DNA of 64,000 nt from Microbacterium sp. CGR2. GTDB taxonomy: Bacteria > Actinomycetota > Actinomycetes > Actinomycetales > Microbacteriaceae. The DNA lies in contig NZ_RBHX01000001.1 of the NCBI RefSeq assembly GCF_003626735.1, positions 1,550,001-1,614,000 on the forward strand, in the 5' to 3' direction. The notes under the pieces are model-generated. The model did not search any database. It was given only the letters and a program-made list of their open reading frames with translations, and had not been told where the DNA came from. Shown here piece after piece: positions 42,986 through 58,945 of the stretch. A program made the position numbers and the translations under genes. Numbering within the stretch: the first letter of the stretch is position 1; every line of letters begins with the position of its first letter.

Positions 42986-43074
42986 GGAGACGTCGCATAG
43001 TCCGGCCGAGTGCACCACCCTGCTAAGGTGGAGTCCCCTCACGGGGACCAGGGGTTCAAATCCCCTCGTCTCCG
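42986..43074 (+). tRNA. tRNA-Ser(GCU), integration site of the element
   Basis: The acceptor arms GGAGACG and CGTCTCC pair, with discriminator G. The anticodon stem CCACC/GGTGG encloses CTGCTAA, anticodon GCT. A long variable arm (GTCCCCTCACGGGGAC) and T-arm GGGGTTCAAATCCCC are intact. The 3' end of the gene is the left copy of the attachment repeat, so the tRNA stays functional after integration. Confidence 0.97.
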
Positions 43075-43076
43075 CA
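43055..43076. repeat. Left attachment repeat (attL core)
   Basis: 22 bases from TTCAAATCCCCT to CTCCGCA, covering the T-loop to the end of tRNA-Ser(GCU); identical to 58924-58945. Confidence 0.93.
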
Positions 43077-43082
43077 CCGTCA

Positions 43083-43124
43083 AAGGTCCGAGATCCCCTG
43101 GAAACACTGGGATTCGGACCTTTT
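43083..43124 (+). terminator. Terminator supplied by the element behind tRNA-Ser(GCU)
   Basis: AAGGTCCGA and TCGGACCTT pair, with an inner stem ATCCC/GGGAT and a TTTTG tail. It ends the tRNA transcript and, read the other way, the integrase transcript. Confidence 0.75.
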
Positions 43125-43129
43125 GCATT

Positions 43130-44263
43130 TCAATCTGCCATCGAATTGCCACCAACCGCCTCTTGGGTCAGCGCATCTATTCGCGTCAAAAGAGTCTCAA
43201 TGTCGTCGTCGAACAGATCTGCGTAGATGTCTAGCGTCATCGCAGCCGACTCGTGCCCAAGCATCCGTTGGATCGCTTTAACGTTGCCGCCAGCGCTGAC
43301 CGCGATCGATGCGGCCGTGTGCCTCAGATCATGCAGCACCATGTTCTCTGCGCCCGCTTCACGCAGGGCTGACTTCCACCACGACTTCGAGCCGCTGGAC
43401 GCCCGCACTCGCCGCATGTAGCCGCCGCCAGTGCCAGGGAATACCAAGTCGCTCTCTGCCTTCCCCCCGAGCGCTGCTCCCAGTGCGTCAGCTGTGACAC
43501 GGGGGAGTGGGACTTGACGTGATCCTGCACGCGTCTTTGGCGTTCCCTCGTGAATCTCTCCAAGCGTCTCAACTGCGTTGCGTCGAACCGATATGCGCCG
43601 TCGTTCGAGATCCACGTCACGCACGCGCAGAGCGACTGTTTCTCCCCAACGGAGTCCGCAGTACCCGAGCACGAGAACAAGCGCCCTGTGCTGCCCCGCA
43701 GCCTCAGCCACGGCATGCAGCTCCCCAGGAGTCAGATAACGATGGTGCCGCTGCGATGTCTTGCGCGGCAGCGAATCCACGCCCTCGGCCGGATTCCTCG
43801 GTATGCGGCCATCTCGCACAGCCTGTTTCAGGATGCCGTTCAGGACACCGTACGCGCGCAACTTCATCGTCGCGGACTTGTCGATTGCGCCGACCCATTC
43901 GGCGACTTCGCTGTTGACGATCCGGCGCAGCTCGACGTCTCCCCACCGCGGTGCCACGTAGTTCCGCCAGGACGCCTCGAGCGGGGCGAATGACGACGGC
44001 TTCAACGTCGCTTTCTTAAGTGCCAGCCAAGCCGGCGCGAGGGCGCTAACGGTTACCCGGGCCTTCCTCGGGTCGGTCCACTCTCCCGTGTTGAGCTTGG
44101 TCTTCTCCGCCGTCAACCACGCCTCAGCCTGATCTCGGGTCGCGAAGCCGCGCTTTTCGATGATCTTGTGGGAGGGCGAGCGGTACCGCGCCCGCCATAA
44201 AAGTCCAGACTCCGCCTTCTTCGACGGGTAGGAGTAGACGTTCTGAACGACTCGCTTAGCCAT
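43130..44263 (-). CDS. int: Tyrosine site-specific integrase
   Basis: A 377-residue phage-type integrase. An N-terminal arm-binding domain (MAKRVVQNVYSYPSKKAESG..., then an AP2-like RYRSPSHKIIEKRGFATRDQAEAWL) is followed by a SAM-like core-binding domain and the catalytic domain with Arg in GYCGLRWGET, HDLRHTAAS (His-x-x-Arg), LGHESAAMTLDIYADLF (His and nucleophilic Tyr). All catalytic residues are present, so it should be active. ATG 44263 is inside the repressor gene, overlapping it by 8 bases; the two are probably co-transcribed. It lies 54 bases from attL, which is its expected substrate. Confidence 0.95.
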   Translation of the reverse strand: MAKRVVQNVYSYPSKKAESGLLWRARYRSPSHKIIEKRGFATRDQAEAWLTAEKTKLNTGEWTDPRKARVTVSALAPAWLALKKATLKPSSFAPLEASWRNYVAPRWGDVELRRIVNSEVAEWVGAIDKSATMKLRAYGVLNGILKQAVRDGRIPRNPAEGVDSLPRKTSQRHHRYLTPGELHAVAEAAGQHRALVLVLGYCGLRWGETVALRVRDVDLERRRISVRRNAVETLGEIHEGTPKTRAGSRQVPLPRVTADALGAALGGKAESDLVFPGTGGGYMRRVRASSGSKSWWKSALREAGAENMVLHDLRHTAASIAVSAGGNVKAIQRMLGHESAAMTLDIYADLFDDDIETLLTRIDALTQEAVGGNSMAD

Positions 44264-44810
44264 CAGATGAGGGTCGCCACGCCTCAGCGATGATGTTACG
44301 GATCGTCTCAGAAATCTCGTCGTCGTCTCTGAGTCTCTTCTCGGCGTAGCCCCGCACCTCTTCGGCCACCTCGACGGGGTCGTACCGCAGCGCGTCCCGA
44401 AGTTGATCGACTTGAGAATCAGGGAGGTCGACGCCGTCATCGATGCGCGTCAAGTGCCTCGCCAGCTTCATCTGTGCGTCCAGCATGCGTTGGCTGGCGA
44501 AGAACACATCCTCGTAGGCGGCCTCGAGCGGGCGGAGGAGCAAGGTTATTGCGAGCGAGTGTTTGCCATTCACGAGGGAAGTGACATCAGGGAGTTGCAG
44601 CGCCCGTGCGAGGGCTGCCGCCTCACCAATCGTCGCCTTCCTGTTGCCCGACTCGATTTTGTAGACCGTTTGCTGTTGGAACTCGAACCCCAACTGCTGC
44701 ATCTCCTCAGCAAGCGCGGCCTGTGAGAGGCCCTTCCGCTCTCTCGCTTCTCGCAAAGTCTCGCCGAAAGTCTTGTCTACGGCGGTCGCGTCTCTCCCCG
44801 GGCCTGGCAT
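44256..44810 (-). CDS. XRE/Cro-cI family regulator (likely element repressor)
   Basis: A 184-residue protein with an N-terminal HTH_3 domain (TFGETLREARERKGLSQAALAEEMQQLGFEFQQQTVYKIESGNRKATIGEAAALARAL) and a helical C-terminal part of unknown type that is rich in Asp/Glu. It is divergent from the excisionase gene, with a palindrome between them, and overlaps the integrase gene. Role as maintenance repressor of the element is inferred from this layout. Confidence 0.85.
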   Translation of the reverse strand: MPGPGRDATAVDKTFGETLREARERKGLSQAALAEEMQQLGFEFQQQTVYKIESGNRKATIGEAAALARALQLPDVTSLVNGKHSLAITLLLRPLEAAYEDVFFASQRMLDAQMKLARHLTRIDDGVDLPDSQVDQLRDALRYDPVEVAEEVRGYAEKRLRDDDEISETIRNIIAEAWRPSSDG

Positions 44811-44865
44811 GTCATCAAGATACCTCCAAATAAGTGTTGCACTCAAACCGAAATCGGGTGTACGC

Positions 44866-44878
44866 TGAAGTAGCTTCA
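44866..44878. promoter_or_regulatory. Operator-like palindrome in the divergent control region
   Basis: TGAAGTAGCTTCA: arms TGAAG and CTTCA around TAG. It lies in the 93-bp gap between the XRE repressor and the excisionase. TTGCACTCAAAC upstream and TGTACGCT give a plausible rightward -35/-10. Confidence 0.6.
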
Positions 44879-44903
44879 AAACAAAACCAAAAGGAGGTTG
44901 AGT

Positions 44904-45125
44904 ATGGGTGTATCGGCAATAGGAGATCTCCTCGCACCCGATGCGGTGTGCGAGCTGATCCCCGGCATGACGCGGGCGAAGCTTTCTCAGATGCGCTTCA
45001 GCGGAACTGGGCCGGCTTACTACAAGCCAACGGCGAAGACAGTGGTCTATGACCGGGACGTCGTTGTCGCATGGCTCAGGTCCACGGAGCGGGTCGGTAC
45101 CAGTGAGTTTGCGGAGACCGGATGA
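44904..45125 (+). CDS. xis: Excisionase-like MerR/AlpA HTH protein
   Basis: A 73-residue protein with a winged helix fold typical of recombination directionality factors: IGDLLAPDAVCELIPGMTRAKLSQMRFSGTGPAYYKPTAKTVVYDRDVVVAWLRS. The end VVVAWL is the usual AlpA wing/helix. ATG 44904 follows AAAGGAGGTTGAGT, a perfect ribosome site. It is the first gene of the rightward operon. Xis function is inferred. Confidence 0.75.
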   Translation: MGVSAIGDLLAPDAVCELIPGMTRAKLSQMRFSGTGPAYYKPTAKTVVYDRDVVVAWLRSTERVGTSEFAETG

Positions 45126-45484
45126 ACGCACCGTCGTACTCGACTTCCATGCCCCGGGCGAGGTTGGACCCGCACGAAGTCGATCGGCTCATCGTCTACG
45201 CGATGGGAGCGCTGGAGAAGCACAAGATGTCGTTTGTCAACGACAGCGGCGCGCTCGTCTGCGTTGGTACGTCTCGCGGCAAGATGAGCCGGCTCGTGAG
45301 GGATGCGTTGCGAGTGTTCGGCCCCGAGAAAGCTCGCCGGACGATCGACGAGCACATCGCCAACCTGATTGAAGTCGAGCGGGAGTCTTACCGCAGAGGC
45401 TTCACCAGTCAAAAAAGAAAGCGGCCGACCTGTTGGAGCAGGGCGACCGCGGAGTCATCTGAATTGGAGATCCGAAATGACTAG
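45122..45484 (+). CDS. Hypothetical early-operon protein
   Basis: A 120-residue protein I do not recognise. The central part RLDPHEVDRLIVYAMGALEKHKMSFVNDSGALVCVGTSRGKMSRLVRDALRVFGPEKARRTIDEHIANLIEVERESYRRGF is folded-looking and helical, and the tail is basic and disordered. The start overlaps the stop of xis (ATGA) and the end overlaps the next gene by eight bases, so translation is coupled. Confidence 0.65.
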   Translation: MNAPSYSTSMPRARLDPHEVDRLIVYAMGALEKHKMSFVNDSGALVCVGTSRGKMSRLVRDALRVFGPEKARRTIDEHIANLIEVERESYRRGFTSQKRKRPTCWSRATAESSELEIRND

Positions 45485-46004
45485 TACCACCAGTGTAGAC
45501 CACACCCCCGCCGCGCGCACCTTGTTGCTGGACGGGTGCGCCGGGGGTGATGACGCCTTGTTGGACGTGGGGGCGGAGAACAAGACGGCACCTCCGCCCC
45601 CTACTCGCCTCGACCCGGGCTGGGAAGAACACGCTGCGGCGTTCCTGGCCATGCACCCGGAGATCTCGGCTGCGGTGCCCCGGTGGACCGAAGAGCTTGA
45701 CTTCATCGACATTGAGAGTGATGTCGACGGGACGATCTTCTCGTTCGCCCGCACCATTCGAGATGTCGAGATATACGGGGGCGGCAGGCTTCACGCGGAC
45801 GGACGAGTGGAGCTGTGCGACAACGGCATCCCAAACATCTACATCCGTTCAGAGTTGAGGGCGGACGAAGACCCGAATGTCGCACAGTGGGCACTGCACG
45901 TCGCGGAAGATCTCACCGCGGCGGCGTTGTTGTTGCGGGCCGAATCGAAGTTGTTGCGTCGGCCCGTCGATGTCGACGCCGAGCTACAGCGGCTGGACAT
46001 CTGA
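45477..46004 (+). CDS. Hypothetical early-operon protein
   Basis: A 175-residue acidic protein. After a disordered 50-residue start with a Pro run (TAPPPPTRLDPGW), EEHAAAFLAMHPEISAAVPRWTEELDFIDIESDVDGTIFSFARTIRDVEIYGGGRLHADGRVELCDNGIPNIYIRSELRADEDPNVAQWALHVAEDLTAAALLL reads as a compact alpha/beta domain. No family recognised. Its TGA overlaps the next ATG (TGATG). Confidence 0.65.
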   Translation: MTSTTSVDHTPAARTLLLDGCAGGDDALLDVGAENKTAPPPPTRLDPGWEEHAAAFLAMHPEISAAVPRWTEELDFIDIESDVDGTIFSFARTIRDVEIYGGGRLHADGRVELCDNGIPNIYIRSELRADEDPNVAQWALHVAEDLTAAALLLRAESKLLRRPVDVDAELQRLDI

Positions 46005-46327
46005 TGGCCTGCCGGTTCGGCTGGTGTCAGACGCCCGCCAAGCTGCATTCAGAAGACCCGAGCTATCACACGCGAGAACTCGGACACGGAATGCTGCTCA
46101 CCGTCAACATGGATGGGCAGCCGATCGCCAACTGGATGCCCGACTGGGGTGAATGGTGGATCGACAAGCCCGGAGAGATCGACACCGAGTACGACGACGT
46201 CGCGATCATGCTCTGCGAACTCCCGAAGCAGTACAGAGAGTTTCGGGAGGCGCTAATCAACGACCCGGTGTTCGCCGACGAAGTCGCCGCCGTGAAAGCC
46301 AAGGATGCCGCGGAGATGAACAGATGA
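46004..46327 (+). CDS. Hypothetical early-operon protein
   Basis: A 107-residue protein starting MACRFGWCQTP (a CxxxxC pair) with a Trp-rich centre (NWMPDWGEWWIDKPGEI) and a helical acidic end. No family recognised. The same reading frame continues open for 102 more codons behind its TGA, and those codons also look coding; see the next entry. Confidence 0.6.
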   Translation: MACRFGWCQTPAKLHSEDPSYHTRELGHGMLLTVNMDGQPIANWMPDWGEWWIDKPGEIDTEYDDVAIMLCELPKQYREFREALINDPVFADEVAAVKAKDAAEMNR

Positions 46328-46636
46328 CACATCCGAGAGTCCTATATCGAAGCGAATCCGACTATCGCCGTCGAACATGGCGCCGAACTGCTGGCGCGGA
46401 ACTCGCGCCCGGATCTCTTCGCCCTCGCTGACGACAAGGTCGAAGCAGAGCTGGTCCGCACGGGTCGGCTGAGCCTCGAAGCACCTGTGAGCGAAGCGCG
46501 GGGAGAGGAGCCACGCTCTCTCGCCGAGTGGCTGACGATTCGCGATGAACTCGCGGCAACGATCGCCGAGTATGCGCCGCAGGGCGTTTCTGCGTCTTTC
46601 CGAGAGGCAGCAGAGGCCCTTCTCGTGCAGGGGTGA
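46324..46636 (+). pseudogene. Coding region without an intact start (in-frame with the upstream gene behind its TGA)
   Basis: From 46328 to 46636 the frame reads HIRESYIEANPTIAVEHGAELLARNSRPDLFALADDKVEAELVRTG..., with codon use and composition like a real protein, but no ATG or GTG opens it. An ATG at 46324 overlaps the upstream stop in the usual coupled way but is in another frame and ends after 35 codons. Either the TGA at 46325-46327 is a nonsense change joining two halves of one 209-codon gene, or the start region of a separate gene has an indel. Confidence 0.55.
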
Positions 46637-46750: not shown

Positions 46751-46879
46751 ATGACGAACGAACCGAAGGAGACCGCAGCGCAGAGGCGGATGAAGGCATT
46801 TCACAAAGCGCAGGCACTCATCGCAGCCGCCCGCGAAACAGCGAAGCAGAAGCCGCCTCCGGTCGATGACGACGCATGA
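46751..46879 (+). CDS. Small hypothetical protein (42 residues)
   Basis: MTNEPKETAAQRRMKAFHKAQALIAAARETAKQKPPPVDDDA: one basic amphipathic helix. ATG follows GAGGAGGGGATCAC. It overlaps the start of the wHTH gene by 14 bases, suggesting coupled translation. Confidence 0.6.
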   Translation: MTNEPKETAAQRRMKAFHKAQALIAAARETAKQKPPPVDDDA

Positions 46880-47441
46880 GGCGTGGGCGCCGATCCCCAA
46901 CAACCTGTTTCGGCTCGGATGGACGAAGACCGAACTACTTGTGTACCTCGCGCTGCTGTGTCTGCCGTTTGAACGCAACGGCATTGTCATCGCGGGGCAA
47001 ACGGAAATATCGGTAGGTGCGGGCGTCTCGGTGCGCACGACCCGAGACGTGCTTCCCCGGCTGGCGGCGGCCGGGGTCATCGTCCAGAAGCAGCTTTACG
47101 ACGGGATACCGAGCTACTACCGGGTGAACGAACTCCCGCGAGACGGCGGATTCTTTCGGCTACCGCGGCGGTGGCTGTGGGAAACCTCACTGACGGCAAC
47201 CGAGCGGATCGTCTACCTCGTGCTGCTGTCCCGTCGCAACAGACGCACAGGTGAGGCCGTCGTGTCGTGGGTGTCGATCCTCGCCGAAGCCCGTGTGACG
47301 AACCGGACGCTAGCCCCCGCGCTCGACGCTCTGACCGCGGTAGGGCTCATCACACGAATCCATCAACCGCGTCGTGGCAAACGTCAGGGCATCAACAAGT
47401 ACCGAGTCCAGCTGCCTACCGAACATGTTCCGAACATGTGA
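46866..47441 (+). CDS. Tandem winged-helix (HTH_36-like) protein, likely replication initiator
   Basis: A 191-residue protein made of two similar winged-helix units. Unit one is WTKTELLVYLALLCLPFERNGIVIAGQTEISVGAGVSVRTTRDVLPRLAAAGVI, with wing SYYRV. Unit two is LTATERIVYLVLLSRRNRRTGEAVVSWVSILAEARVTNRTLAPALDALTAVGLITRI, with wing INKYRV. Two consecutive wHTH units are the architecture of many plasmid and phage Rep proteins. The stop codon is directly followed by 22-bp iterons. Both facts suggest an iteron-binding initiator; a transcription regulator is the alternative. Confidence 0.7.
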   Translation: MTTHEAWAPIPNNLFRLGWTKTELLVYLALLCLPFERNGIVIAGQTEISVGAGVSVRTTRDVLPRLAAAGVIVQKQLYDGIPSYYRVNELPRDGGFFRLPRRWLWETSLTATERIVYLVLLSRRNRRTGEAVVSWVSILAEARVTNRTLAPALDALTAVGLITRIHQPRRGKRQGINKYRVQLPTEHVPNM

Positions 47442-47506
47442 CCCAGGCAAAAGGGCACACCGACCCAGGCAAAAGGGCACACCGACCCCGGCAAAAGGGA
47501 ACGAGG
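47441..47506. repeat. Three 22-bp iterons behind the Rep-like gene
   Basis: Units start at 47441, 47463 and 47485. The first two are identical (ACCCAGGCAAAAGGGCACAC plus CG); the third differs at the fifth base and in its end (ACCCCGGCAAAAGGGAACG). Upstream, CCGAACATGT occurs twice (47419 and 47430), and downstream AAGACATCT occurs twice in an AT-richer stretch (47509-47532). This is the layout of an iteron origin. Confidence 0.7.
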
Positions 47507-47571
47507 AACAAGACATCTCTATAAGACATCTACACAAGACCTTAGGCGCAACTGCAAGCAGTGGCGCTCGC

Positions 47572-47868
47572 ATGAACTTCCAGAACCTACGAGTGAACCG
47601 GTCAACAGCGAAACAGCGAACCCTTCTCCGTGATCTCTGGATCATCATCAGCGGGAAGCTCCCCTCGCAACAGGTCGAGCACGTGTGGGAAGTTCTCACC
47701 GTCCAACAAGCCCAGGACCTCATCAGCGACTACTACAGCAGGTTCGGGCGCGCCAGCAACTACGACGGTGGCCTCGACGAAGCCGACCCTGAAGTCGAAC
47801 ACCTCTCACCTAAAGGGAGGGCTTTCGTCAGCTCGGGGTTCGACCCCTACTTCGACTTCAACACCTGA
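47572..47868 (+). CDS. Hypothetical protein
   Basis: A 98-residue protein from ATG 47572 (MNFQNLRVNRSTAKQRTLLRDLWIIISGKLPSQQVEHVWEVLTVQQAQDLISDYYSRFGRASNYDGGL...). The frame is open further upstream through the iterons, where the translation is low-complexity, so the upstream part was left out. No ribosome site is obvious. Family not recognised. Confidence 0.55.
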   Translation: MNFQNLRVNRSTAKQRTLLRDLWIIISGKLPSQQVEHVWEVLTVQQAQDLISDYYSRFGRASNYDGGLDEADPEVEHLSPKGRAFVSSGFDPYFDFNT

Positions 47869-48216: not shown

Positions 48217-48806
48217 ATGACCACCATGCAGTTTCGCGACACCACCAACAACGTCGTCATCCGCGACACCGACAGCGAAGCACTCGTTGACGTCGCCACC
48301 CGCATCAAAGCACAGCGCGACACCGCCCGAGCATCGAGCAACGCCCACACGCGGGCCATCAACGAGATCAACAACGATCCGACACTCAGCGAACAAGGCA
48401 AGGAGGAGCGCGCCGCAGAACTCGAAGCCACTCGCAGCACCCAGCGCAAGAGCTGGATCGCAGACGAGAAAGCAATCATCAAGAACAAGATCACCGAGCT
48501 CGAGCGACGCCTAGACGGATTCGTCGGGTACTCGAGCGAGAACATCATGGCGTTCCGCGACGCGCAGGACCGAGCCGAGAACATCGGTGACCCAGAGAAG
48601 GCCGCAACCGTCATGGCCCGCGCCCTCCGCACCAACGACAGGACACTGGCGCACGCGCTATACCGCCGAGCAGTCGAACAGCGATGGGAAGACGCGCGAC
48701 GAGCGTTCGCCGCAGATAACCCTGCCGTTGCCCAGCTGTCCATGACGTGCACAAGCTCCACGAACTGCACGACAGCACCTTCACACGAGCCGTCGCATAC
48801 ATGTGA
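48217..48806 (+). pseudogene. Coiled-coil phage-like protein with a frameshift near its 3' end
   Basis: ATG 48217 follows GAAGGAGACACC. The frame encodes a charged, helical protein (DPTLSEQGKEERAAELEATRST..., LERRLDGFVGYSSENIMAFRDAQDRAENIGDPEKAATVMARALRTNDRTLAHALYRRAVEQRWEDARRAFAADNPAVAQ). This recalls small structural genes in actinophage modules, but no family is certain. Around 48735-48742 good coding sense jumps to another frame (VHDVHKLHELHDSTFTRAVAYM, TGA at 48804-48806). One missing base explains it. Without the shift the frame runs on by chance through a GC-rich spacer into the next gene, giving a 535-codon artefact. Confidence 0.6.
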
Positions 48807-48900
48807 CACCCAGGCGGGGGTCCCCGGGTGGGGCCTCCGCCTCCGGGTCTCTGGGGCTTGCCGCCCTCTCTCCCCGACATTTTTTTCCACACGGACACCG
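48807..48900 (+). other. GC-rich structured spacer ending in a T-tract
   Basis: Runs such as GGCGGGGGTCCCCGGG, CCTCCGCCTCCGGG and CTTGCCGCC can pair in several ways (outer GGCGG/CCGCC, inner CCCGG/CCGGG), followed by ATTTTTTTCC at about 48881. It stands out from the A/C-rich coding sequence on both sides and may be a terminator or processed leader before the 48922 gene. Confidence 0.5.
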
Positions 48901-48921
48901 AAACCACACAGGAGCAACCGA

Positions 48922-49824
48922 ATGAAGAAGCACACAATTCAGCTCGAATCGGTCAAAGCGACAGCCGCCCGGGAAGCAGCGGACGAACTTCACCGCCTCG
49001 AATCTCGAACAGAAACCGTCCGCGCCGCAGCTCTGACCGGCAACCTCACGGCCCACGACCTCGCCGCGCACAACGACCAACTCAACCTCGCCAAGCTACG
49101 GGCAGAAGCCGCCTCAGAAGCCGCTGACGCCGAACAGCACAACCTCGGCACGGCAAACACTGTCGCTGATGCCATCGCCGAGTTCATCGAAGATCCAGCG
49201 CTCGATCCCACCGCGATTCTGGACGCAGCCGAACGAGTGCAGGAGGCGATCACCCAGCTCGAGGAAGCCAACACGACACGAAATGAAGCGATAACCACCT
49301 GGGTCAAACGTCTGCGGCAGCTCGGTATCCCCGACCGGGGACTCACCGTAAATGACGACGAGGTGCACATCATCGCGAACGGGACTGGAGGCTCATCTAT
49401 CGCCATCGGCGCCGGTCGAGTAACGAGCGTTCCCAACGTCGCCGGGTACCTCCGACACATCACACAGCGTGCCACCAGCCGAGCCACCATGAGTATCGAC
49501 CCGGTAGGACTGAGCAGCACCGACACCCGCTCACGAATGCGAGAAGACATCGCATCCGTAAGGCTCACCAAAGCGATCGGCGGGCGCAGCATCGGTGACG
49601 TCCTCACGACTCGCACTCACGCTCGCAGCGTGCTCGCACAGATGGTTCACAACGGCAGCGCTGAACTCATCGAGGGTGATATCCCGGAGCGATCCGAGTA
49701 CGAGCGGACCTTGTTCGTCGGAGATACGTCGCGACTCCCGGACACGCAGCACGTCACCACCATCCGCAACGTCAACGACGATGCCATCGTCGCAGCAGCG
49801 GTCACCAAGGCGTTCGAAGCATGA
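48922..49824 (+). CDS. Hypothetical phage-like protein with N-terminal coiled coil
   Basis: A 300-residue protein from ATG 48922, preceded by AGGAGCAACCGA. Residues 1-110 are Ala/Glu/Arg-rich helices (ESVKATAAREAADELHRLESRTETVRAAALTG...), and the C-terminal half is mixed alpha/beta (TVNDDEVHIIANGTGGSSIAIGAGRVTSVPNVAGYLRHITQR...). No family recognised. It was probably expressed together with the 48217 gene and lies upstream of the tail-type gene. Confidence 0.65.
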   Translation: MKKHTIQLESVKATAAREAADELHRLESRTETVRAAALTGNLTAHDLAAHNDQLNLAKLRAEAASEAADAEQHNLGTANTVADAIAEFIEDPALDPTAILDAAERVQEAITQLEEANTTRNEAITTWVKRLRQLGIPDRGLTVNDDEVHIIANGTGGSSIAIGAGRVTSVPNVAGYLRHITQRATSRATMSIDPVGLSSTDTRSRMREDIASVRLTKAIGGRSIGDVLTTRTHARSVLAQMVHNGSAELIEGDIPERSEYERTLFVGDTSRLPDTQHVTTIRNVNDDAIVAAAVTKAFEA

Positions 49825-49972: not shown

Positions 49973-50101
49973 ATGACTCATTACATCAACGGCATCCACC
50001 TGCCTACTGGGCAGCTCGAGATCGATCAGATGCCAACCATCAGCGGCGTGCAGCCGAACGTGTACGTCGATTCAAACGGCGTCTTCTACCGGATCACCTA
50101 A
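49973..50101 (+). CDS. Small hypothetical protein (42 residues)
   Basis: MTHYINGIHLPTGQLEIDQMPTISGVQPNVYVDSNGVFYRIT, beta-rich, preceded by GAGAGGACC. Its position before the SGNH tail protein suggests a small structural or chaperone role; no family recognised. Confidence 0.55.
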   Translation: MTHYINGIHLPTGQLEIDQMPTISGVQPNVYVDSNGVFYRIT

Positions 50102-51781: not shown

Positions 51782-51805
51782 ATCACCGTGCTCAGTCGTC
51801 AGCGC

Positions 51806-52401: not shown

Positions 52402-52518
52402 CTATTTGCCAAAGCTACCGATGCGAACCTTCGCGGTGTCTGTCTCGTTATCGATGATCACCAAGCACCGATAGTTGGCCCGGATCATCGCGCCATCCAG
52501 CGCACCGCTCGCGGCCAC
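52402..52518 (-). CDS. Possible small protein overlapping the DUF7882-like gene
   Basis: GTG 52518 overlaps the upstream TAG by one base (TAGTG) and gives 38 residues ending NYRCLVIIDNETDTAKVRIGSFGK. The end looks like a beta-strand of a real protein; it may be a remnant. Confidence 0.35.
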   Translation of the reverse strand: MAASGALDGAMIRANYRCLVIIDNETDTAKVRIGSFGK

Positions 52519-52856
52519 TATGCGGAGTCTGTGTTCTCGAGAGGTGCCACCGGTGCACCTTCGGGGGGCTCGGGCACCAGGTAGAGCCCACTGGGGGAGT
52601 TGGCGGTGAACGCCAGCGCTTCGATCCACTGGCGATTGATTGATGGCTGTCGGCCGCCGAAGTATTTGAAGACCAGTGAACTGCCCGGCTGCAGCCAGAC
52701 AGTGGTGCGCCCACCGCCGACGCTGGCGTCTTCGCGCCAGCTGAACGGGAAGGGCTCACCACGACGCAGCTTGGCCGTGATGACGAACTGAAGGTGCGAG
52801 AGAGCGCGGTCTTCGATCTCGGTCTTCACGCCGTCCTCGTAGATGAACTTGCCCAT
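52518..52856 (-). CDS. DUF7882-like small protein, paralogue 1
   Basis: A 112-residue protein: MGKFIYEDGVKTEIEDRALSHLQFVITAKLRRGEPFPFSWREDASVGGGRTTVWLQPGSSLVFKYFGG... NRQWIEALAFTANSPSGLYLVPEPPEG. I know this family from Microbacteriaceae genomes, where it is often mislabelled ATP-dependent DNA ligase; the family name is from memory. It has no ligase motif. It is divergent from paralogue 2, and both share the 123-bp gap. Confidence 0.8.
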   Translation of the reverse strand: MGKFIYEDGVKTEIEDRALSHLQFVITAKLRRGEPFPFSWREDASVGGGRTTVWLQPGSSLVFKYFGGRQPSINRQWIEALAFTANSPSGLYLVPEPPEGAPVAPLENTDSA

Positions 52857-52979
52857 CCGCGTTCCCCCTTGTCCGCCCGCACTTGCCTCGAGAGGCGATC
52901 GTAACGACCGCCGGTGCAATCGCCAGTGTCCCATGTTCCCCGATGAAGTATCCCTCTCTTGGCGCGTACTGTTCTACTC

Positions 52980-53276
52980 ATGGGAACTCTCGAGTACAAC
53001 AGCTCTCGGCCGCCGATCGAGGTCGACGACGCCACGCTGGCGCATCTGAAGATCGTGATCGGTACGAAGCTTCGCCGCCAGGAGAGTTTCATGATGACGT
53101 GGCTTCCCGATGAGAAGAATCCGGCTGGACGGCTCACCATCTGGATGCACCCGAGCATTCCGCTGATCTTCGCGTTCAACGACCCGAAACTGCACTCGAT
53201 CGAGCCGGAGCGCATCGGACGGATGATGGAACACGTGAACTCTCGCGGTGAATTGATCCTCGACCAACTCAGCTAG
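52980..53276 (+). CDS. DUF7882-like small protein, paralogue 2
   Basis: A 98-residue protein: MGTLEYNSSRPPIEVDDATLAHLKIVIGTKLRRQESFMMTWLPDEKNPAGRLTIWMHPSIPLIFAFNDPKLHSIEPERIGRMMEHVNSRGELILDQLS. It shares the pattern of paralogue 1 (LAHLK.VI.TKLRR.ESF...W......GR.T.W.HPS.PL.F.F). The function is unknown. Confidence 0.8.
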   Translation: MGTLEYNSSRPPIEVDDATLAHLKIVIGTKLRRQESFMMTWLPDEKNPAGRLTIWMHPSIPLIFAFNDPKLHSIEPERIGRMMEHVNSRGELILDQLS

Positions 53277-53760
53277 CGCCCAATCAACTTCGAGCGCCCA
53301 TTCCGTAGGGACTCCAGCGGCCCCTGTTGCGTGTCACGGCGACGTGAAGCCCCCGCTAGAGCTATCCGGAGGCGCACGGGGGTCTCGTGGTGGCGCGTTG
53401 TGGGCCGCGTGCATTCCGGTCCCCGGGGGTGATCCCGACAAGTCTGGGGAACCTGCGGGACCACCTGCCGGCTTCGCTGGGGACTCCACCGGCTTATAGA
53501 CCGCTGTCACGTGCGATCACGCTCAAGCTATCTCTGAAGCCTTGATACCTGTCAACCCCCTAGCAATCGCCTCTGTCCTAGCTACCGTGATCGGTTGCAG
53601 CCCGTGCGGCGATCTGGGGAGAGCCGCGATGGGACTCTGCAGGTCGGTGGCCCGTGGTGGCGAGAAGGGATGCGACTGCGGGCCGCCGCGCTCCGCTTTT
53701 TCGAAACACCCGCGTGAAGAGATGCCTGGCGCGGGTGAAGCCTGGATTCCCAAAGCAGAC

Positions 53761-53866
53761 CGGCGTAGCCTGCTCGCAGAGCCGTGGCAAAGGGCTGAAG
53801 CTGGGGACCAGTCCGGTCGCGATCTGAGCCGTCCACCGAGCCGGCGCTGGGGTCTTGCTCGGTGGA
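53761..53866 (+). ncRNA. Putative structured small RNA, copy A
   Basis: Shares with 55931-56030 the block CGGCGTA..CTGCTCGCAGAGCCG.GG, then CTGGGGA..GTCCG, ATCTGA-like sequence and a closing hairpin TCCACCGAG/CTCGGTGGA with a 23-base loop. TAGCCT sits where a -10 box would be. No family recognised. Confidence 0.45.
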
Positions 53867-53976
53867 TGGCGACAAACGGCGACCCATTCGAGTTTGAGCC
53901 CGGCGTCTGCAGGTCGCGCTTCGTTCGCGCAGTGTCGCGCGTAGAGTAGCCAGGCTGGCCCGGACCCCGCTAGCGA

Positions 53977-54015
53977 CGATGGGTCCGGAGCGGCACCGCG
54001 GCCCCGGACCCATCG
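53977..54015. terminator. Perfect 12-bp hairpin downstream of small RNA copy A
   Basis: CGATGGGTCCGG and CCGGACCCATCG around a 15-base loop. Confidence 0.6.
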
Positions 54016-54108
54016 CCTCGGGCGGTCTGTATCGTGCAACCCCTACGGCTTTCGCTCAGTGAACGCAACCCCGTTTCTGGGCGATCGTCGGCCTCGTACC
54101 GTGAGGCG

Positions 54109-54384
54109 ATGACTTCAATGCAGACGATGATTCGCACGCAGGTGGTGGTCGACGGCGTACCGTTCTTGCTCTCTCAAGGCCAAGATTTGGACGCGCTGAA
54201 GCGGAGCTTCGAAGCCGCGCTAAGCACCGGCGCGTTCGTGGACTTCTCCGTGGTCGGCAATCGAGAAGTCAGCGTTCTCGTCTCGGCCCACACCAGCATC
54301 GTCCTGTCAATTGACACGGTGCAGTTCGACGAGAGGGATGACGGCGACCTCGAGACTCCGTACGGCGGCATGTTCGACTTCTAG
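54109..54384 (+). CDS. Hypothetical protein (91 residues)
   Basis: MTSMQTMIRTQVVVDGVPFLLSQGQDLDALKRSFEAALSTGAFVDFSVVGNREVSVLVSAHTSIVLSIDTVQFDERDDGDLETPYGGMFDF. A compact alpha/beta protein, in the gap between DUF7882-like paralogues 2 and 3. The family is not recognised, but similar size and placement next to DUF7882 genes suggests a functional link. Confidence 0.65.
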   Translation: MTSMQTMIRTQVVVDGVPFLLSQGQDLDALKRSFEAALSTGAFVDFSVVGNREVSVLVSAHTSIVLSIDTVQFDERDDGDLETPYGGMFDF

Positions 54385-54478
54385 AGCGTCATCGCAACCT
54401 CTCCGCGCCAAGTGTCATGAGACGGCTCGAGACCAACCGAGGCGGCCTGGGGGCGATGTTCCAGCTAGGGTTCAGAAT

Positions 54479-54802
54479 ATGGGAACCATTCAGTACGGCG
54501 GCACAGGCGACGCGATCCATATCGACGATCGCGCCCTCGCGCACCTCAAGGTCGTGATCGCGACAAAACTGCGCCGCAACGAAAGCTTCACCCTTTCCTG
54601 GGTCCACCACGACGACGATCCCGACGGCCGATCCACCATCTGGCTTCACCCATCCATCCCCCTGCGGTTTACCTTCGAAGAACCCGAAACCCCGCAACTC
54701 AACGTGAAATGGATCGAAGACCTCATGCACTCGGCCAGTTCCACGGGTGGCATACAACTCATCGACGAAATGCTCGAGACTCCCGCAGACGAGGCTACGT
54801 AG
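54479..54802 (+). CDS. DUF7882-like small protein, paralogue 3
   Basis: A 107-residue protein: MGTIQYGGTGDAIHIDDRALAHLKVVIATKLRRNESFTLSWVHHDDDPDGRSTIWLHPSIPLRFTFEEPETPQLNVKWIEDLMHSASSTGGIQLIDEMLETPADEAT. The core aligns without gaps to paralogue 2; the acidic tail is extra. ATG 54479 is used because the upstream open frame lacks the family start. Confidence 0.8.
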   Translation: MGTIQYGGTGDAIHIDDRALAHLKVVIATKLRRNESFTLSWVHHDDDPDGRSTIWLHPSIPLRFTFEEPETPQLNVKWIEDLMHSASSTGGIQLIDEMLETPADEAT

Positions 54803-55249: not shown

Positions 55250-55531
55250 ATGACGAACCCCAACACGAACGGGCGCGTCTCTCGTCTCACGACTGAGACC
55301 AAGGCTGCGTTCAAGACCACCGAATTCATCGCTTACGTCGTCATCCTCGTCGCAATGTTCATCGCTTCCGCAGTCGTTGACAACGGTGAAGACGGCCAGG
55401 GATTCGGCGCGTCGCAGGTCTGGTGGTACGCCACTATCCTCACGGTCGGTTACATGGTCAGCCGTGGTCTCGCCAAGTCGGGCAGCCGCGAGCGGTACGA
55501 CAGCGACGACCGCGCCAACCGTCACAACTGA
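55250..55531 (+). CDS. Small two-helix membrane protein
   Basis: A 93-residue protein: MTNPNTNGRVSRLTTETKAAFKTTEFIAYVVILVAMFIASAVVDNGEDGQGFGASQVWWYATILTVGYMVSRGLAKSGSRERYD... with two transmembrane helices and a short acidic loop between them. Proteins of this type are common in actinobacteria; the function is unknown. It has its own terminator. Confidence 0.75.
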   Translation: MTNPNTNGRVSRLTTETKAAFKTTEFIAYVVILVAMFIASAVVDNGEDGQGFGASQVWWYATILTVGYMVSRGLAKSGSRERYDSDDRANRHN

Positions 55532-55548
55532 CGAACGTAGCACCGGCC

Positions 55549-55588
55549 GGAGGCCCCCATCTAGACTTCGGGTCGGGTGGGGGTCTCC
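55549..55588 (+). terminator. Terminator behind the two-helix membrane protein
   Basis: GGAGGCCCCCA and TGGGGGTCTCC pair around a loop with CTTCGG. Confidence 0.75.
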
Positions 55589-55651
55589 TCGCTTTCTGCT
55601 TGTTGCCCCCGGTTCGTGGCGCAACTGCCCGCGCCTCTTCCGACGAGTGCC

Positions 55652-55863
55652 ATGCAACCCAACGACCCACTCGAGTTTAAGCTCCGGGTACTTCGAGATA
55701 CCACCGAGAGGTTCCGACGCCTAGCATCGTCGGGCGCAGATCCCGCGTTCAACTGTCTCCTTGCTGATCAGCTCTCTCGCCGCGCGGACAGGATTGCAGC
55801 GGGAGGGAATGACCACTCGCTGATCCTCTCGACGAGGTGCTCAAGACTCCGCCGGGCGCCTAG
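55652..55863 (+). pseudogene. Small helical protein gene with apparent frameshift
   Basis: ATG 55652 reads MQPNDPLEFKLRVLRDTTERFRRLASSGADPAFNCLLADQLSRRADRIAAGGNDHS, a good helical protein. After about 55820 the sense moves to the neighbouring frame, ADPLDEVLKTPPGA with TAG at 55861-55863; in the original frame the sequence becomes Arg/Ser-rich. One missing base would explain it. Confidence 0.45.
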
Positions 55864-55930
55864 CAGCCGGAGAATCAGCGCGCACCCGCGATCTTGTGGC
55901 CCAAAGTCGACCTAGACGCCAATCGTGTAG

Positions 55931-56030
55931 CGGCGTACTCTGCTCGCAGAGCCGCGGTGAGTGAACTGGGGAACGTCCGAACCGCGTTCTGATCTCCCAC
56001 CGAGCGATACCAGGGGACTCCTCGGTGGGA
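55931..56030 (+). ncRNA. Putative structured small RNA, copy B
   Basis: Second copy of the sequence at 53761-53866. It contains a CTCTG-CTCG-CAGAG hairpin, a CGCGGT/ACCGCG stem enclosing CTGGGGAACGTCC, and the closing TCCCACCGAG/CTCGGTGGGA hairpin. TACTCT is placed like a -10 box. Confidence 0.45.
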
Positions 56031-56034
56031 GGTC

Positions 56035-56307
56035 CTATCTCGGAAGGGTGGCGCGCGTGATTTCGGCTGCGTGGACGGCGGCGCGATGAGCTGCGTCGCG
56101 ACCAGCGAAATTCACTGTGACGAAATACTCATCGTTGATGCCGCGCTCGTGGATCGTGACGGCGTGGTCGACGACGATGAGAACGCGTTGGGCGGTCAGG
56201 CTTGCGTATTCGAACGTGTTGCCGTCGCGGTTCCAGTCACCACCGAGCAGATCGTCGAGCTGCTCGGTGACCGCACTCTTGTTCCAGGTCGTGTCGGTGA
56301 GATCCAT
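56035..56307 (-). CDS. Hypothetical protein (90 residues)
   Basis: MDLTDTTWNKSAVTEQLDDLLGGDWNRDGNTFEYASLTAQRVLIVVDHAVTIHERGINDEYFVTVNFAGRDAAHRAAVHAAEITRATLPR. Alpha/beta, acidic start. It overlaps the upstream minus-strand gene by one base. No family recognised. Confidence 0.6.
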   Translation of the reverse strand: MDLTDTTWNKSAVTEQLDDLLGGDWNRDGNTFEYASLTAQRVLIVVDHAVTIHERGINDEYFVTVNFAGRDAAHRAAVHAAEITRATLPR

Positions 56308-56522
56308 TAGTCGCTCCAGTCAGCGGATCGATGCATAGTGCCCGGGGCCGGGTGTTGCCCAGCAAGCTTTTGAATGTCTCGGAGGTTGATACCGAGCGCG
56401 GTGGCCATTGCCCCCGGTGGGTATCCTTCCTCGCGTAGTGCTTGGATTGCCCGACGGCGCAGGGCGTCCGCGCGAGACAGATTCCCATGTGCCTCGGCGT
56501 GGTCGCCAGCGCGGATCATCAT
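56307..56522 (-). CDS. Small HTH-like protein (71 residues)
   Basis: MMIRAGDHAEAHGNLSRADALRRRAIQALREEGYPPGAMATALGINLRDIQKLAGQHPAPG...: the segment EEGYPPGAMATALGINLRDIQKL resembles a helix-turn-helix. Two adjacent ATG codons at 56522 and 56519 are possible starts. It is divergent from the 56580 gene, whose SOS-type box lies between them. Confidence 0.55.
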   Translation of the reverse strand: MMIRAGDHAEAHGNLSRADALRRRAIQALREEGYPPGAMATALGINLRDIQKLAGQHPAPGTMHRSADWSD

Positions 56523-56552
56523 TCTCCGGCCACAGATCGAGAATAGCAATAT

Positions 56553-56568
56553 TCGAACATATGTTCTA
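56553..56568. promoter_or_regulatory. LexA (SOS) box upstream of the 56580 gene
   Basis: TCGAACATATGTTCTA: the core GAACATATGTTC is a perfect palindrome and fits the actinobacterial LexA consensus TCGAAC-N4-GTTCGA at all but one position. It ends 11 bases before the ATG, overlapping the likely -10 region. Confidence 0.75.
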
Positions 56569-56579
56569 TCCTCGTACTC

Positions 56580-56843
56580 ATGAGTACGCCAACCGTCGCA
56601 CCCACGGCAACACTATGGATGGTCAACGACATCCCCACACGGATGATCTACGCCGGCCGACGATGGCGCGTCACAGACACCCCAACGCGACTGCGCCACT
56701 CGACCTGGACGGTGCCACTCGAGGAGGCTCACACGGGCCTCTACGGCTGGCGATTCCAAGGGACGGATGACGAGGGGCTGTCACTCGTGTTCGACGTCTA
56801 CAAGGGCGCGGACGGCTGGCATCTGCACCGCACGTACGAGTGA
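56580..56843 (+). CDS. DUF6504-like small protein under a LexA box
   Basis: An 87-residue protein: ...TLWMVNDIPTRMIYAGRRWRVTDTPTRLRHSTWTVPLEEAHTGLYGWRFQGTDDEGLSLVFDVYKGADGWHLHRTYE. The order of blocks (xxYAGRRWRV...W..P...GWRF...G..LVFDVYK...W.L.R.Y) resembles DUF6504 proteins that accompany SOS mutagenesis genes in actinobacteria; the match is from memory. The LexA box supports DNA-damage induction. It is convergent with the NYN gene. Confidence 0.6.
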   Translation: MSTPTVAPTATLWMVNDIPTRMIYAGRRWRVTDTPTRLRHSTWTVPLEEAHTGLYGWRFQGTDDEGLSLVFDVYKGADGWHLHRTYE

Positions 56844-56846: not shown

Positions 56847-57485
56847 CTAAGCCCAGCGGGCAGGTCTGTTGAAGTTCTTCCCATCGGCGGTGAATGACGT
56901 CGGGAGTTGCAGCTTCTTGATGCGCCTTCGGTCTATGTGGAAGGAAGCCGGCATTAGGGTCTTGAGATGTTGAGAGACCCGGTTCGGCGGAAAGGCTGCG
57001 GCGACGAAAAGATGGGCACCGATCGATCCCACCGCCTTCACTGCTGGCACCAGATCACTGTCAGCGCTGACGATGATGGCGGAATCCATGCTGTGGAGCG
57101 CGGCGTCGGCCACGAGCGTGACCGCGATATTGACGTCGGTCTCTTTCTCTTCGTAGTGCACATGGGAATTCCCGCACTTGAAGCAGACTATGTTCTTCTT
57201 CTGATATCGGCCCATGATGGCAGAGAACTGGTTGGGGTAAAGCGCCGCCAGAGCCTCCACGTAGTGCGCCTGTCGGCTCTGAGCACGGGGATCGTCCAGG
57301 ACGGGGGCACTGAAGTACTTCACCGCAACCAGTCGCTGCTGGGGTCGAAAGCTCTGGGCTAGGGCAACCAGATCCAGCCACAGCGTTGAGCGCCCGAACT
57401 CTTGATGCATCCCGTGGTAAAGATTGAACCCGTCGACATAGACGATCAATCTCTCCTTGGGCTTCATCGGGACCGGCTGACTCAT
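56847..57485 (-). CDS. NYN-domain (PIN-like) nuclease
   Basis: A 212-residue protein of the NYN/LabA superfamily. The acidic active site is in IVYVDGFNLYHG, EKETDVNIAVTLVADAALHSMDSAIIVSADSDLVPAV (conserved Asp cluster). Between them is CFKCGNSHVH, a CX2CX3HXH knuckle that may bind zinc. Such proteins are metal-dependent RNases or DNases and are frequent in defence islands and prophages. ATG 57485 is used; an upstream extension is Arg-rich and not like the family. The gene stands alone on the minus strand. Confidence 0.8.
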   Translation of the reverse strand: MSQPVPMKPKERLIVYVDGFNLYHGMHQEFGRSTLWLDLVALAQSFRPQQRLVAVKYFSAPVLDDPRAQSRQAHYVEALAALYPNQFSAIMGRYQKKNIVCFKCGNSHVHYEEKETDVNIAVTLVADAALHSMDSAIIVSADSDLVPAVKAVGSIGAHLFVAAAFPPNRVSQHLKTLMPASFHIDRRRIKKLQLPTSFTADGKNFNRPARWA

Positions 57486-57601
57486 CTGGTCATCGTACGG
57501 CACGCACCGCGACACGCCCGGGATTCCGAGTGGTAGCCAGCCACTAGGTGAGAGCCTAAGATTGGACATACCACACCTGGTTGACCTGTACAGCCAGGCC
57601 C

Positions 57602-57637
57602 GACGTCCCCGCCGCAAGCGGGGACGTCTTTGTTTTT
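57602..57637 (+). terminator. Strong rightward terminator with no gene in front
   Basis: GACGTCCCCGC and GCGGGGACGTC around CGCAA, followed by TTTGTTTTT. Both neighbouring genes are on the minus strand, so it must end a short rightward transcript or be a remnant. Confidence 0.75.
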
Positions 57638-57702
57638 GCGGCATCTCAGCCGATCATTCACAGCCACGCCGACCCGTCTTCTCCGGCCATGGGATCGGAT
57701 GC

Positions 57703-58254
57703 CTACCGGTATGTGATCTTCCACGGCTCGTCGGGAAGCGAGTCAACCCATGCTCGAAGCGCATCTGGAGTGAACAGCGGCTTTGTCCCGGCGTAGTGGG
57801 CAACGAGTCGATTCATCTTGACCGCCGCCTGGATCATGCTCACGCTCACGCCTGTAGCTATAGCGGCTTCCTTGAGAGTGTAAGCGACCTTCCGTGAGCC
57901 GAGCGCGTGAATCACCTCGTCGTGGACGATGGACCGCAGCTCGTTCGCTGTGAAGGCCAGCCTGACCGCTCCGGGGTCTGGTTGTGCAGGCGGCTCCGGA
58001 GTCTGTGGGTAGCCGCGAGGAACATCCGGATGGGATCGCAGGTACTCCTCGAGGTCCACCCACTTGCACGGCAGCTTGGCTCGCGTTGTCCAAAGTTCCA
58101 CCACGGCCGGGTCGTCGATGAGTCGGATGCGGATGCTTGCCTCGTAGTGCAGGCCCGGATTCAGGATCAGAGCCCTTTGTAGAGGTAGCGCTGTCCCCGG
58201 CCTGAACGCCCAATACTCACCGGTCTGAATCCCAAGCTCGCCACCAATCGGCAT
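57703..58254 (-). CDS. HTH_17-type DNA-binding protein
   Basis: A 183-residue protein. The N-terminal half (GEYWAFRPGTALPLQRALILNPGLHYEASIRIRLIDDPAVVELWTTRAKLPCKW) is beta-rich and of unknown type. The C-terminal part KVAYTLKEAAIATGVSVSMIQAAVKMNRLVAHYAGTKPLFTPDALRAWVDSLP is an excisionase-like helix-turn-helix. ATG 58254 is preferred; an in-frame ATG at 58293 would reach into the operator. It is divergent from the 58339 regulator. Confidence 0.7.
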   Translation of the reverse strand: MPIGGELGIQTGEYWAFRPGTALPLQRALILNPGLHYEASIRIRLIDDPAVVELWTTRAKLPCKWVDLEEYLRSHPDVPRGYPQTPEPPAQPDPGAVRLAFTANELRSIVHDEVIHALGSRKVAYTLKEAAIATGVSVSMIQAAVKMNRLVAHYAGTKPLFTPDALRAWVDSLPDEPWKITYR

Positions 58255-58290
58255 GGGCCGAGAGTACCCCTTGATGTCTGTACATGCTGA

Positions 58291-58310
58291 CACGATTTCT
58301 GAGTATCGTG
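58291..58310. promoter_or_regulatory. Inverted repeat between the two right-end regulators
   Basis: CACGAT (58291-58296) and ATCGTG (58305-58310) around TTCTGAGT, in the 84-bp divergent gap. Confidence 0.55.
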
Positions 58311-58338
58311 CTCTCTACCAACTGAGGGGAGATCGCTC

Positions 58339-58782
58339 ATGCACATCAGAGAAGACACACTCGATGCGACGATCCGAAAGGTACTTCGGGAAGAGCTTCG
58401 TTCTATGCCGCCCTCTGTGCCAGTCTTCGCCTCATTCAGTCAGGGCGCTGTTGCCGCGGCGGTGCGTGCAGAACTGGCCCGGGCGAACAAGCATCCCGCT
58501 GATCTCACGGAGGTGCTCGGCGTCAGCCGGCCGACCGTGGCTGGCCGATTGAGTGGTGCGTACGCATTTTCAGTCGCAGAGCTGGACAGAGTTGCCTTGT
58601 TTCTTGGCATCGGCGCCTTCAACATCCTCGAGTCCGCGATGCTAGGAGAGCGGTTCGCCGCGACAGAGACTTCGCTTGAGGAGCAAAAACGCGTCTTCGC
58701 ACCGGATGCATGGGCGCAGCCACCGCGAGCGCTGGCGGCTCAGAGACGCCGCGCCGAGGGGCGGAGGCCAGGCCCGCACTGA
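58339..58782 (+). CDS. XRE family regulator at the right end
   Basis: A 147-residue protein. The HTH is AAVRAELARANKHPADLTEVLGVSRPTVAGRLSGAYAFSVAELDRVALFLGIG, preceded by a 40-residue helical start and followed by a basic tail. ATG follows GGGGAGATCGCTC. It is the last gene before attR and a second repressor-like gene in the element. Confidence 0.75.
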   Translation: MHIREDTLDATIRKVLREELRSMPPSVPVFASFSQGAVAAAVRAELARANKHPADLTEVLGVSRPTVAGRLSGAYAFSVAELDRVALFLGIGAFNILESAMLGERFAATETSLEEQKRVFAPDAWAQPPRALAAQRRRAEGRRPGPH

Positions 58783-58923
58783 GTTGGTCTAACGGGGGAG
58801 TAGATCGCCCGCCACGTTTCTGCCATCAAGTGAACAGTGATCAACGTCCCGAGATGCGTCCAAACTGGCTCCGCATCCGCGTCTTTTCGGCAGTCGGCAC
58901 GAGGCGGCCGAGCGACGCTAGGT

Positions 58924-58945
58924 TTCAAATCCCCTCGTCTCCGCA
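58924..58945. repeat. Right attachment repeat (attR core)
   Basis: Identical over 22 bases to 43055-43076. Only the tRNA 3' end is present here, so this copy was created by integration. Confidence 0.93.

Follow-up and report, generated by a model that had tools for sequence, protein, structure and literature searches.

In a stretch of 64,000 nucleotides from Microbacterium sp. CGR2 (contig NZ_RBHX01000001.1, positions 1,550,001 to 1,614,000; hereafter the window), we found an integrated element of 15.9 kb (43055–58945) inserted in tRNA-Ser(GCU). The element is probably a phage satellite with a helper-dependent life cycle and a chimeric tail, and it belongs to an apparently undescribed family across Actinomycetes, marked by a gene that we call gene A. 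It is integrated in the tRNA gene and carries a repressor gene, an excisionase-like gene and a Rep–iteron origin, whereas genes for a head, for packaging or for a tail tube were not found. A slot near gene A holds virion parts of the helper type, which vary between elements.

Attachment site, switch genes and origin

The element is bounded by exact 22-bp direct repeats. The copy at the integrase end (43055–43076) lies inside the tRNA-Ser(GCT) gene (42986–43075, + strand), of which it forms the 3′ end, and the far copy is located at 58924–58945; such an exact pair is expected by chance in 16 kb at a frequency of ~7e-6. The exact repeats and the tRNA call agree with an earlier note on this DNA, which had described a ~15.9-kb element with a perfect attachment (att) duplication in this tRNA gene. 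The GC content is 61.4% in the element versus 67.5% across the remaining window. The same att site and gene order also occur elsewhere: in L035, a close relative (L numbers denote loci), the 22-bp repeat is identical, its two copies lie 14.9 kb from each other, and the locus is collinear with the window element from att through Rep. For fourteen relatives, direct repeats of 22–57 bp mark the ends, giving element lengths of 9.0–16.0 kb, where the bounds were chosen by eye among repeats of at least 22 bp and those of L087 are unsure, as they cut through a called open reading frame (ORF).

At the integrase end, the element encodes a tyrosine integrase of 377 amino acids (aa) (43130–44263, – strand; PF00589 1.8e-22, phrog_1 6.5e-71) and a helix-turn-helix (HTH) repressor-like protein (44256–44810, – strand; PF13560 2.2e-11; 57% to L026, 49% to L035), as expected from the intact integrase and repressor control previously noted. 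The excisionase named with them, a small DNA-binding protein (44904–45125, + strand), is a weak call by profile (phrog_66, E 0.0074); its conservation in L026 and L035 (82% and 80%) speaks for it. A replication initiator-like protein (46866–47441, + strand; phrog_270 2.8e-10; 77% to L035) is followed by a putative origin (47440–47540) consisting of 22-bp repeats (47440–47499, 2.7 copies) and then a 13-bp repeat (47508–47540). The 22-bp motif and the neighboring 13-bp repeat are also found directly after Rep in L035 and L097, and the Rep-like gene with iterons is in this way corroborated. A second protein of the Rep module (98 aa) is encoded at 47572–47868 (+ strand).

We scanned 20 ORFs against Pfam and 20 against PHROGs, with a few small ORFs lying outside the scan. 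At E ≤ 0.001, none of them matched a family of terminases, portals, capsids, tape measures, relaxases or secretion proteins. Two virion labels were insignificant (phrog_28013, E 0.3; phrog_1180, E 0.055), and the Pfam scan of 20 ORFs contained no relaxase, coupling or transfer gene. The terminase, portal, capsid and tail modules of a prophage were not found in the element, and nothing near it was present in phage and plasmid DNA collections. The absence of a virion or conjugation core, as first read by eye, was also the result of the profile search.

A family of elements marked by gene A

Searches for relatives, with the own genome included in each count, matched 34 of 295 genomes in the genus (query, the joined A+B protein), 22 of 398 genomes at the family level, in 16 of 85 genera (profile A1), and 5 of 396 genomes at the phylum level. 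The named hosts of gene A include Microbacterium, Leucobacter, Curtobacterium, Agreia, Plantibacter, Herbiconiux, Williamsia, Gordonia, Rhodococcus, Mycobacterium, Arthrobacter and Paenarthrobacter. Stretches of ~20 kb (shorter at contig ends) round every match outside the own genome, together with one IMG/VR locus, gave 57 loci. Gene A was recognized by profile in 55 of 58 loci (window included), and L026, L042 and L043 entered the set through gene B. Of 36 loci obtained later, 25 were annotated (gene A by profile in 23) and the other 11 were taken as already in the set. Genes in relatives were called with a simple codon-based caller, and the PHROG and Pfam scans were applied to a selection of proteins (94 with a length of at least 170 aa, encoded in 23 tape-measure loci, 30 chosen and 10 from later loci); the 194 proteins listed for the remaining loci were, as a set, outside these scans. 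In the window, gene A stands beside the Rep module and adjoins the virion-part slot, as in the proposed family.

A protein search scored 7,994 candidates and recovered 247 gene-A proteins, whose names, where shown, were 'hypothetical' or 'uncharacterized', and a Pfam domain was present in none of 120 listed gene-A proteins. The gene A model (L029 protein) is all-helical with a predicted local distance difference test (pLDDT) score of 88.9, and neither PDB nor BFVD gave a fold match at E ≤ 0.001; no solved structure was found by sequence. With the A+B protein of the window as the query, no gene A match was obtained in 50,697 phage records.

The window copy of gene A (48217–48806, + strand; A1 alignment; all-helical) is frame-shifted near its C-terminus. 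Here an ORF of 535 aa (48217–49824) joins gene A (~195 aa) and gene B (~300 aa), which are separate genes in L027. Near residue 175 the conserved C-terminus moves to another frame with its own stop, and the first frame continues into gene B (48922–49824, + strand), which has its own AGGAG before the ATG at 48922 and shares its reading frame with the shifted end of gene A. The frame shift could have arisen recently, could stem from an error in sequencing, or could reflect a true fusion of the two genes. Homologs of gene B were found in only L026, L027, L042 and L043 among the other 57 loci.

A slot for virion parts beside gene A

Among the 58 loci (window included), we detected a tape measure gene in 26, a small terminase (TerS) gene in 16, a chaperone gene in 7 and a scaffold gene in 5; any of the four was present in 32. 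Loci without any virion-part match were kept in these denominators, and L028, which ends at a contig end just after gene A, was counted as lacking a tape measure. The slot gene of 900 aa was identified as a tape measure (phrog_1533 2e-89, PF10145 4.2e-46), that of 110 aa as TerS (phrog_1496 6e-19), and that of 163 aa resembles scaffolds (phrog_233 1.9e-7). A tape measure of another type occurs in L038 (PF20155 1.6e-20), with further types in L082, L099 and L104. In all seven cases, the chaperone gene overlaps the start of the tape measure gene. The tape measure gene lies within the att bounds in 7 of the 14 bounded relatives (L027, L029, L039, L073, L092, L099 and L104), and in the later loci it was found in 10 of 25, one of them weak. 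Other proteins occupy the position beside gene A elsewhere: L142 (Arthrobacter) has an esterase, L143 (Paenarthrobacter) a spike and L147 (Mycolicibacter) a minor tail protein, and fiber-like proteins with the N-terminus of Footloose gp27 are encoded in L026, L030 and L038.

Profiles derived from Microbacterium phage Footloose (NC_073460), Arthrobacter phage Pitbull (PQ184828) and P2, a prophage of the own genome, matched a large terminase, portal, capsid, tail-tube or MuF gene in 0 of 58 loci. Likewise, when the 94 other proteins with a length of at least 170 aa, encoded in 23 tape-measure loci, were scanned, no portal or capsid was present among the families listed (the best 25 of 79 PHROG families and the best 25 of 38 Pfam families). 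An AAA/primase-like protein is encoded in related elements and not in the window copy. Because related elements carry TerS, scaffold-like and AAA/primase-like genes, the assignment as a satellite is stronger than it would be from the window alone.

Three candidate matches were set aside. A 214-aa protein labeled 'terminase large subunit' (phrog_13702) is too short, shows no ATPase motif by eye and has no phage match; it lies directly after the tape measure in L027 (14832–15473), has homologs in L043 and L044, and 4 of the 94 proteins match this family. The label 'endolysin' (phrog_971), the best PHROG for the tape measures of L038 and L104, was disregarded since most other matches were to tape measures, with PF20155 for L038. 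A tape-measure match of 156 aa in L079 was removed as spurious before counting.

Several further genes were seen near gene A. In L133, gene A and TerS are followed by a MuF-type head maturation protease (7719–9176) with an additional match to an ADP-ribosyltransferase family. Helicase or methyltransferase genes resembling defense cargo follow gene A in Mycobacterium L123, L126 and L129. A DNA invertase of 215–219 aa is encoded near gene A in some elements without a tape measure (L040, 7591–8247; L080, 8779–9423) and might switch a nearby tail or surface gene.

History and selection of the tape measure genes

We compared nine tape measures with that of Footloose, and eight aligned over 782–962 columns with 41–57% identity. 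The ninth, from L036, showed 27% identity, and it is 51% identical over 925 aa to the tape measure of prophage P2. The length was 843–951 aa in 16 of the 19 satellite tape measures placed in a tree, compared with 931 aa in Footloose and 957 aa in P2; that of L092 is short. The ratio of nonsynonymous to synonymous substitution rates (dN/dS) was 0.11–0.35 in the seven pairs compared, of which six were satellite–satellite pairs and one included P2, where synonymous sites are near saturation in several pairs, and it was lower for the N-terminal half in 7/7. Since the lengths are phage-like and the genes are under purifying selection, most of these tape measures are working proteins. In the tree, which contains 19 sequences from satellites and 6 from phages or prophages, the phage label requires three changes, at least two of which are forced, which indicates that the gene moved between phages and satellites. 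Footloose has homologs of the tape measure, the chaperone, TerS and the N-terminus of three satellite fibers; the best match of the scaffold is to Pitbull.

The tail fiber of the window element

In the window, the slot contains a tail fiber gene encoding 515 aa (50145–51692, + strand), with an anchor at approximately residues 1–75, an SGNH esterase domain and a C-terminal domain. It matches phrog_15641, 'tail fiber protein', over residues 93–513 (5.5e-78) and PF13472 (1.1e-9), and it is the one tail-type protein to which the earlier note referred. Homologs at 62–85% identity are present in public sequence sets. The first ~75 residues recur on proteins with unrelated C-termini, and for this reason we read the N-terminus as a tail anchor. 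The SGNH catalytic blocks (D121–S122, G211–N213 and D301–H304) are conserved without change across eight sequences. By sequence comparison, acetyl xylan and rhamnogalacturonan acetylesterases are among the closest proteins of solved structure; on these grounds, it is a reasonable guess that the fiber deacetylates a surface polysaccharide. No match for the fiber was found in IMG/VR.

A resident prophage as candidate helper

Prophage P2 of the own genome (41.3 kb, bounded by 25-bp repeats) is integrated in tRNA-His. Its terminase, tail tube, tape measure and lysin genes were recognized by homology to Footloose and its portal and capsid genes by position, and it also has a fiber gene. The P2 fiber is a distant homolog of the window fiber (30% over 156 aa, 24% over 160 aa). 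A terminator-like hairpin after the window fiber (51739–51782) has a 95% match over 40 nt after the P2 fiber. Within the element, this hairpin (51743–51778 in the narrower delimitation) has a similar counterpart at 55551–55586, and a further close match lies at G000:C2:250023. As the hairpin is thus present at 55551 and on contig C2 too, its occurrence after both fibers is only suggestive.

A second, larger prophage-like region is located at G000:C1 ~1.71–1.78 Mb (L051, L052 and L064), with a match at 1.716 Mb to phrog_2, which we take to be the large terminase, and a PF10145 tape-measure match at 1.772 Mb.

Proposed life cycle and alternative explanations

From these gene contents we infer the following life cycle. 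Upon entry of a helper siphophage or induction of a prophage, the element would excise, replicate from its own origin and be packaged in particles made mostly of helper proteins. The slot beside gene A would supply one or a few virion proteins of the helper type that replace the helper's version. In relatives, this part would be a tape measure, accompanied in some of them by its assembly chaperone, or else TerS, a scaffold, a spike or a minor tail protein. In the window, it would be the tail fiber, whose SGNH esterase domain is of the polysaccharide-deacetylase type. The resulting particle would have a chimeric tail, with receptor binding set by the satellite, and P2 is a candidate helper. It is also possible, and more tentatively proposed, that the family travels in the helper's head with a host-range cassette of its own, comprising the fiber for cell binding and the tape measure as a guide for DNA entry. 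If so, satellite particles could enter cells closed to the helper itself, and satellites would be a gene pool supplying tail parts to phages.

Regarding the reading as a phage satellite, a hidden virion module did not turn up in the scanned ORFs and the syntenic L035 has att repeats, so that the interpretation of the earlier note is supported. A number of observations weigh against it. None of the four virion genes (those for the tape measure, the chaperone, TerS and the scaffold) was found in 26 of the 58 loci, and all four, which occur in relatives, are missing from the window copy. The head-gene profiles derive from three phages only, and the MuF-type head protease of Rhodococcus L133 runs counter to a strict rule that no head gene is carried. 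The tape measure of L085 is split (162 + 744 aa). The frame shift in gene A means that the window copy may be impaired or partly disabled. The fiber anchor had no match in the 50,697 phage records, so the tail that this fiber fits was not identified, and P2 as a helper rests on weak homology. No packaging site common to the element and prophages P1 and P2 was detected, as the longest exact matches were 16 nt, the same as in the host control. An empty attachment site was not found: among 57 other genomes, the right flank had only short matches in 4, of at most ~90 nt, and in none of four relatives examined did the flanking reductase gene adjoin tRNA-Ser. In IMG/VR, one gene-A locus was obtained with the broad alignment and none with the close-group alignment; because these scans gave a single locus, evidence from viral contigs is nearly absent.

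We considered whether the element is instead a prophage stripped of its head and tail genes, in which a fiber was kept by chance. The window element, with one recognized virion gene, a frame-shifted gene A and none of the tail genes seen in L026, would fit such decay. However, 14 att-bounded relatives of 9–16 kb show no match to head-gene profiles, gene A was not seen in the phage records searched with the A+B protein, 32 of the 58 loci repeatedly carry TerS, a scaffold or a tape measure in the absence of any portal or capsid match, and the tape measures are under purifying selection. Recurrence of the same gene subset makes random decay unlikely, and we regard this explanation as improbable.

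The tail genes of the family could also be weapons, that is, decoys that poison the tail assembly of competing or helper phages and are not particle parts. Blocking of tail assembly is a known defense of satellites and prophages, according to two reports (PMC11364771, PMC12987554). Nevertheless, 16 of 19 tape measures are of phage length, the tape measures are under purifying selection, a chaperone gene is coupled to the tape measure in 7 of 26 loci, and the tape measures of Vibrio phage-inducible chromosomal island-like elements (PLEs) are needed for normal transfer, that of PLE11 being found in particles (PMC12987554), and we consider such a role improbable. Equally hard to credit is an integrative plasmid-like island on which the fiber is mere cargo, such as an esterase that is secreted. 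The Rep gene and iterons of the element, the large cargo half and the resemblance of the SGNH domain to acetyl xylan esterases would suit it, but no relaxase or transfer family was found among the scanned ORFs, residues 93–513 match a phage tail-fiber family, the N-terminus recurs on unrelated proteins like an anchor, and relatives carry tail proteins in the same slot.

Comparison with known satellites

For one Vibrio satellite family, chimeric tails were described in 2026, alongside some putative cases elsewhere (PMC12987554, Nature 2026). The PLE satellites carry tmp and tac, and their tails combine satellite and helper parts; in PLE11 particles, the tape measure and hub of the satellite are present and those of the phage are absent, and deletion of tmp lowers transfer by 96% in PLE1, 99% in PLE4 and ~99.9% in PLE11 (PMC12987554). 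PLEs take tail fibers, among other parts, from the helper, and according to this paper, tape measures had not been reported in any other satellites; it shows putative ones in PLE-like elements and in capsid-forming phage-inducible chromosomal islands (PICIs) (PMC12987554). These results are a strong precedent for the chimeric tails proposed here. In description, our family resembles PLEs in being integrated, in having its own tape measure and chaperone (both in 7 of the 58 loci) and, as proposed, in borrowing a helper head and mixing satellite and helper parts in the tail. It differs in that PLEs belong to another phylum (Vibrio cholerae), and the gene-A slot can also be occupied by TerS, a scaffold, a fiber, a spike or a minor tail protein. 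In the window copy there is a fiber only, and the tape measure and chaperone that characterize PLEs were not found in it.

PICIs, including the Staphylococcus aureus pathogenicity islands (SaPIs), are ~15 kb in size, similar to the window element. The window element shares with PICIs a direct-repeat attachment site with an integrase and a Rep gene with iterons (a putative origin); a TerS or capsid-size gene was not found in the window copy. The likeness extends to the specific attachment site, the repressor, the own origin and, in relatives, TerS and scaffold-like genes, whereas tail parts are not among the PICI features described in the available part of PMC6092414, and gene A has no Pfam match. 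Capsid-forming PICIs likewise supply part of their own virion, some with putative tmp genes, but they supply the head and borrow tails (PMC12409344, PMC12987554), whereas the gene-A family would supply tail parts; no capsid gene was found here, as opposed to the own capsid and packaging genes of that group.

Among actinobacterial systems, the Streptomyces phage satellites MulchRoom and MiniFlayer are comparable, and MiniFlayer has a tail fiber gene; they are described as encoding encapsidation machinery and lacking key replication genes, the reverse of the window element (PMC10690885). Candidate Mycobacterium PICIs are also integrated satellite-like regions in Actinomycetes, but they were defined by an integrase and a major capsid gene (PMC10654092), whereas 0 of the 58 loci match the capsid profiles used. 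Footloose and Pitbull both have homologs of the satellites' tape measure, but they are phages with full head and tail modules, and Footloose has an integrase.

In the openly accessible literature, we found no description of the gene-A family or of a satellite that adds its own fiber to a helper tail. The family and the satellite-borne fiber therefore appear to be new, while chimeric-tail satellites are already known from PLEs (PMC12987554). If the reading as a satellite is true, this would be a second, actinobacterial family with chimeric tails, in which the swapped part varies by element and includes receptor-binding-like proteins. Satellites could then differ from their helpers in host range, the question of why satellites replace tail parts becomes testable, and gene A is a marker for finding further such elements.

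Cargo and other genes

Between the excisionase-like gene and Rep, small conserved early genes of unassigned function (45122–46636, + strand) have homologs in L026, L030, L035 and L038. A 42-aa ORF between gene B and the fiber (49973–50101, + strand) was called on coding score only and had no match. The cargo half described previously is present. It contains three DUF7882 genes (52518–52856, – strand; 52980–53276 and 54479–54802, + strand; PF25355 8.1e-35, 2.1e-30 and 2.1e-38, respectively), and a small protein gene (54118–54384, + strand) is located in the same region (52518–54802). The DUF7882 family, with three copies in the window cargo, recurs in L026, L029 and L035. These genes are followed by small cargo genes (55250–56843), including a membrane-like protein and the gene at 56619–56843, and by an NYN-domain nuclease-like gene (56847–57503, – strand; PF01936 2.7e-10, phrog_7929 3.3e-20). 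Near the far att, an HTH protein (57703–58254, – strand; PF12728, E 0.011; 82% to L026 over 87 aa) and an HTH repressor-like protein (58339–58782, + strand; phrog_4583 1.1e-12), with a homolog in prophage P2 (40% over 68 aa), are encoded.

In the relatives L028, L031, L033, L034, L037, L039 and L041, a tRNA-Arg(TCT) gene was observed, often on the integrase side, and it is perhaps cargo for rare AGA codons.

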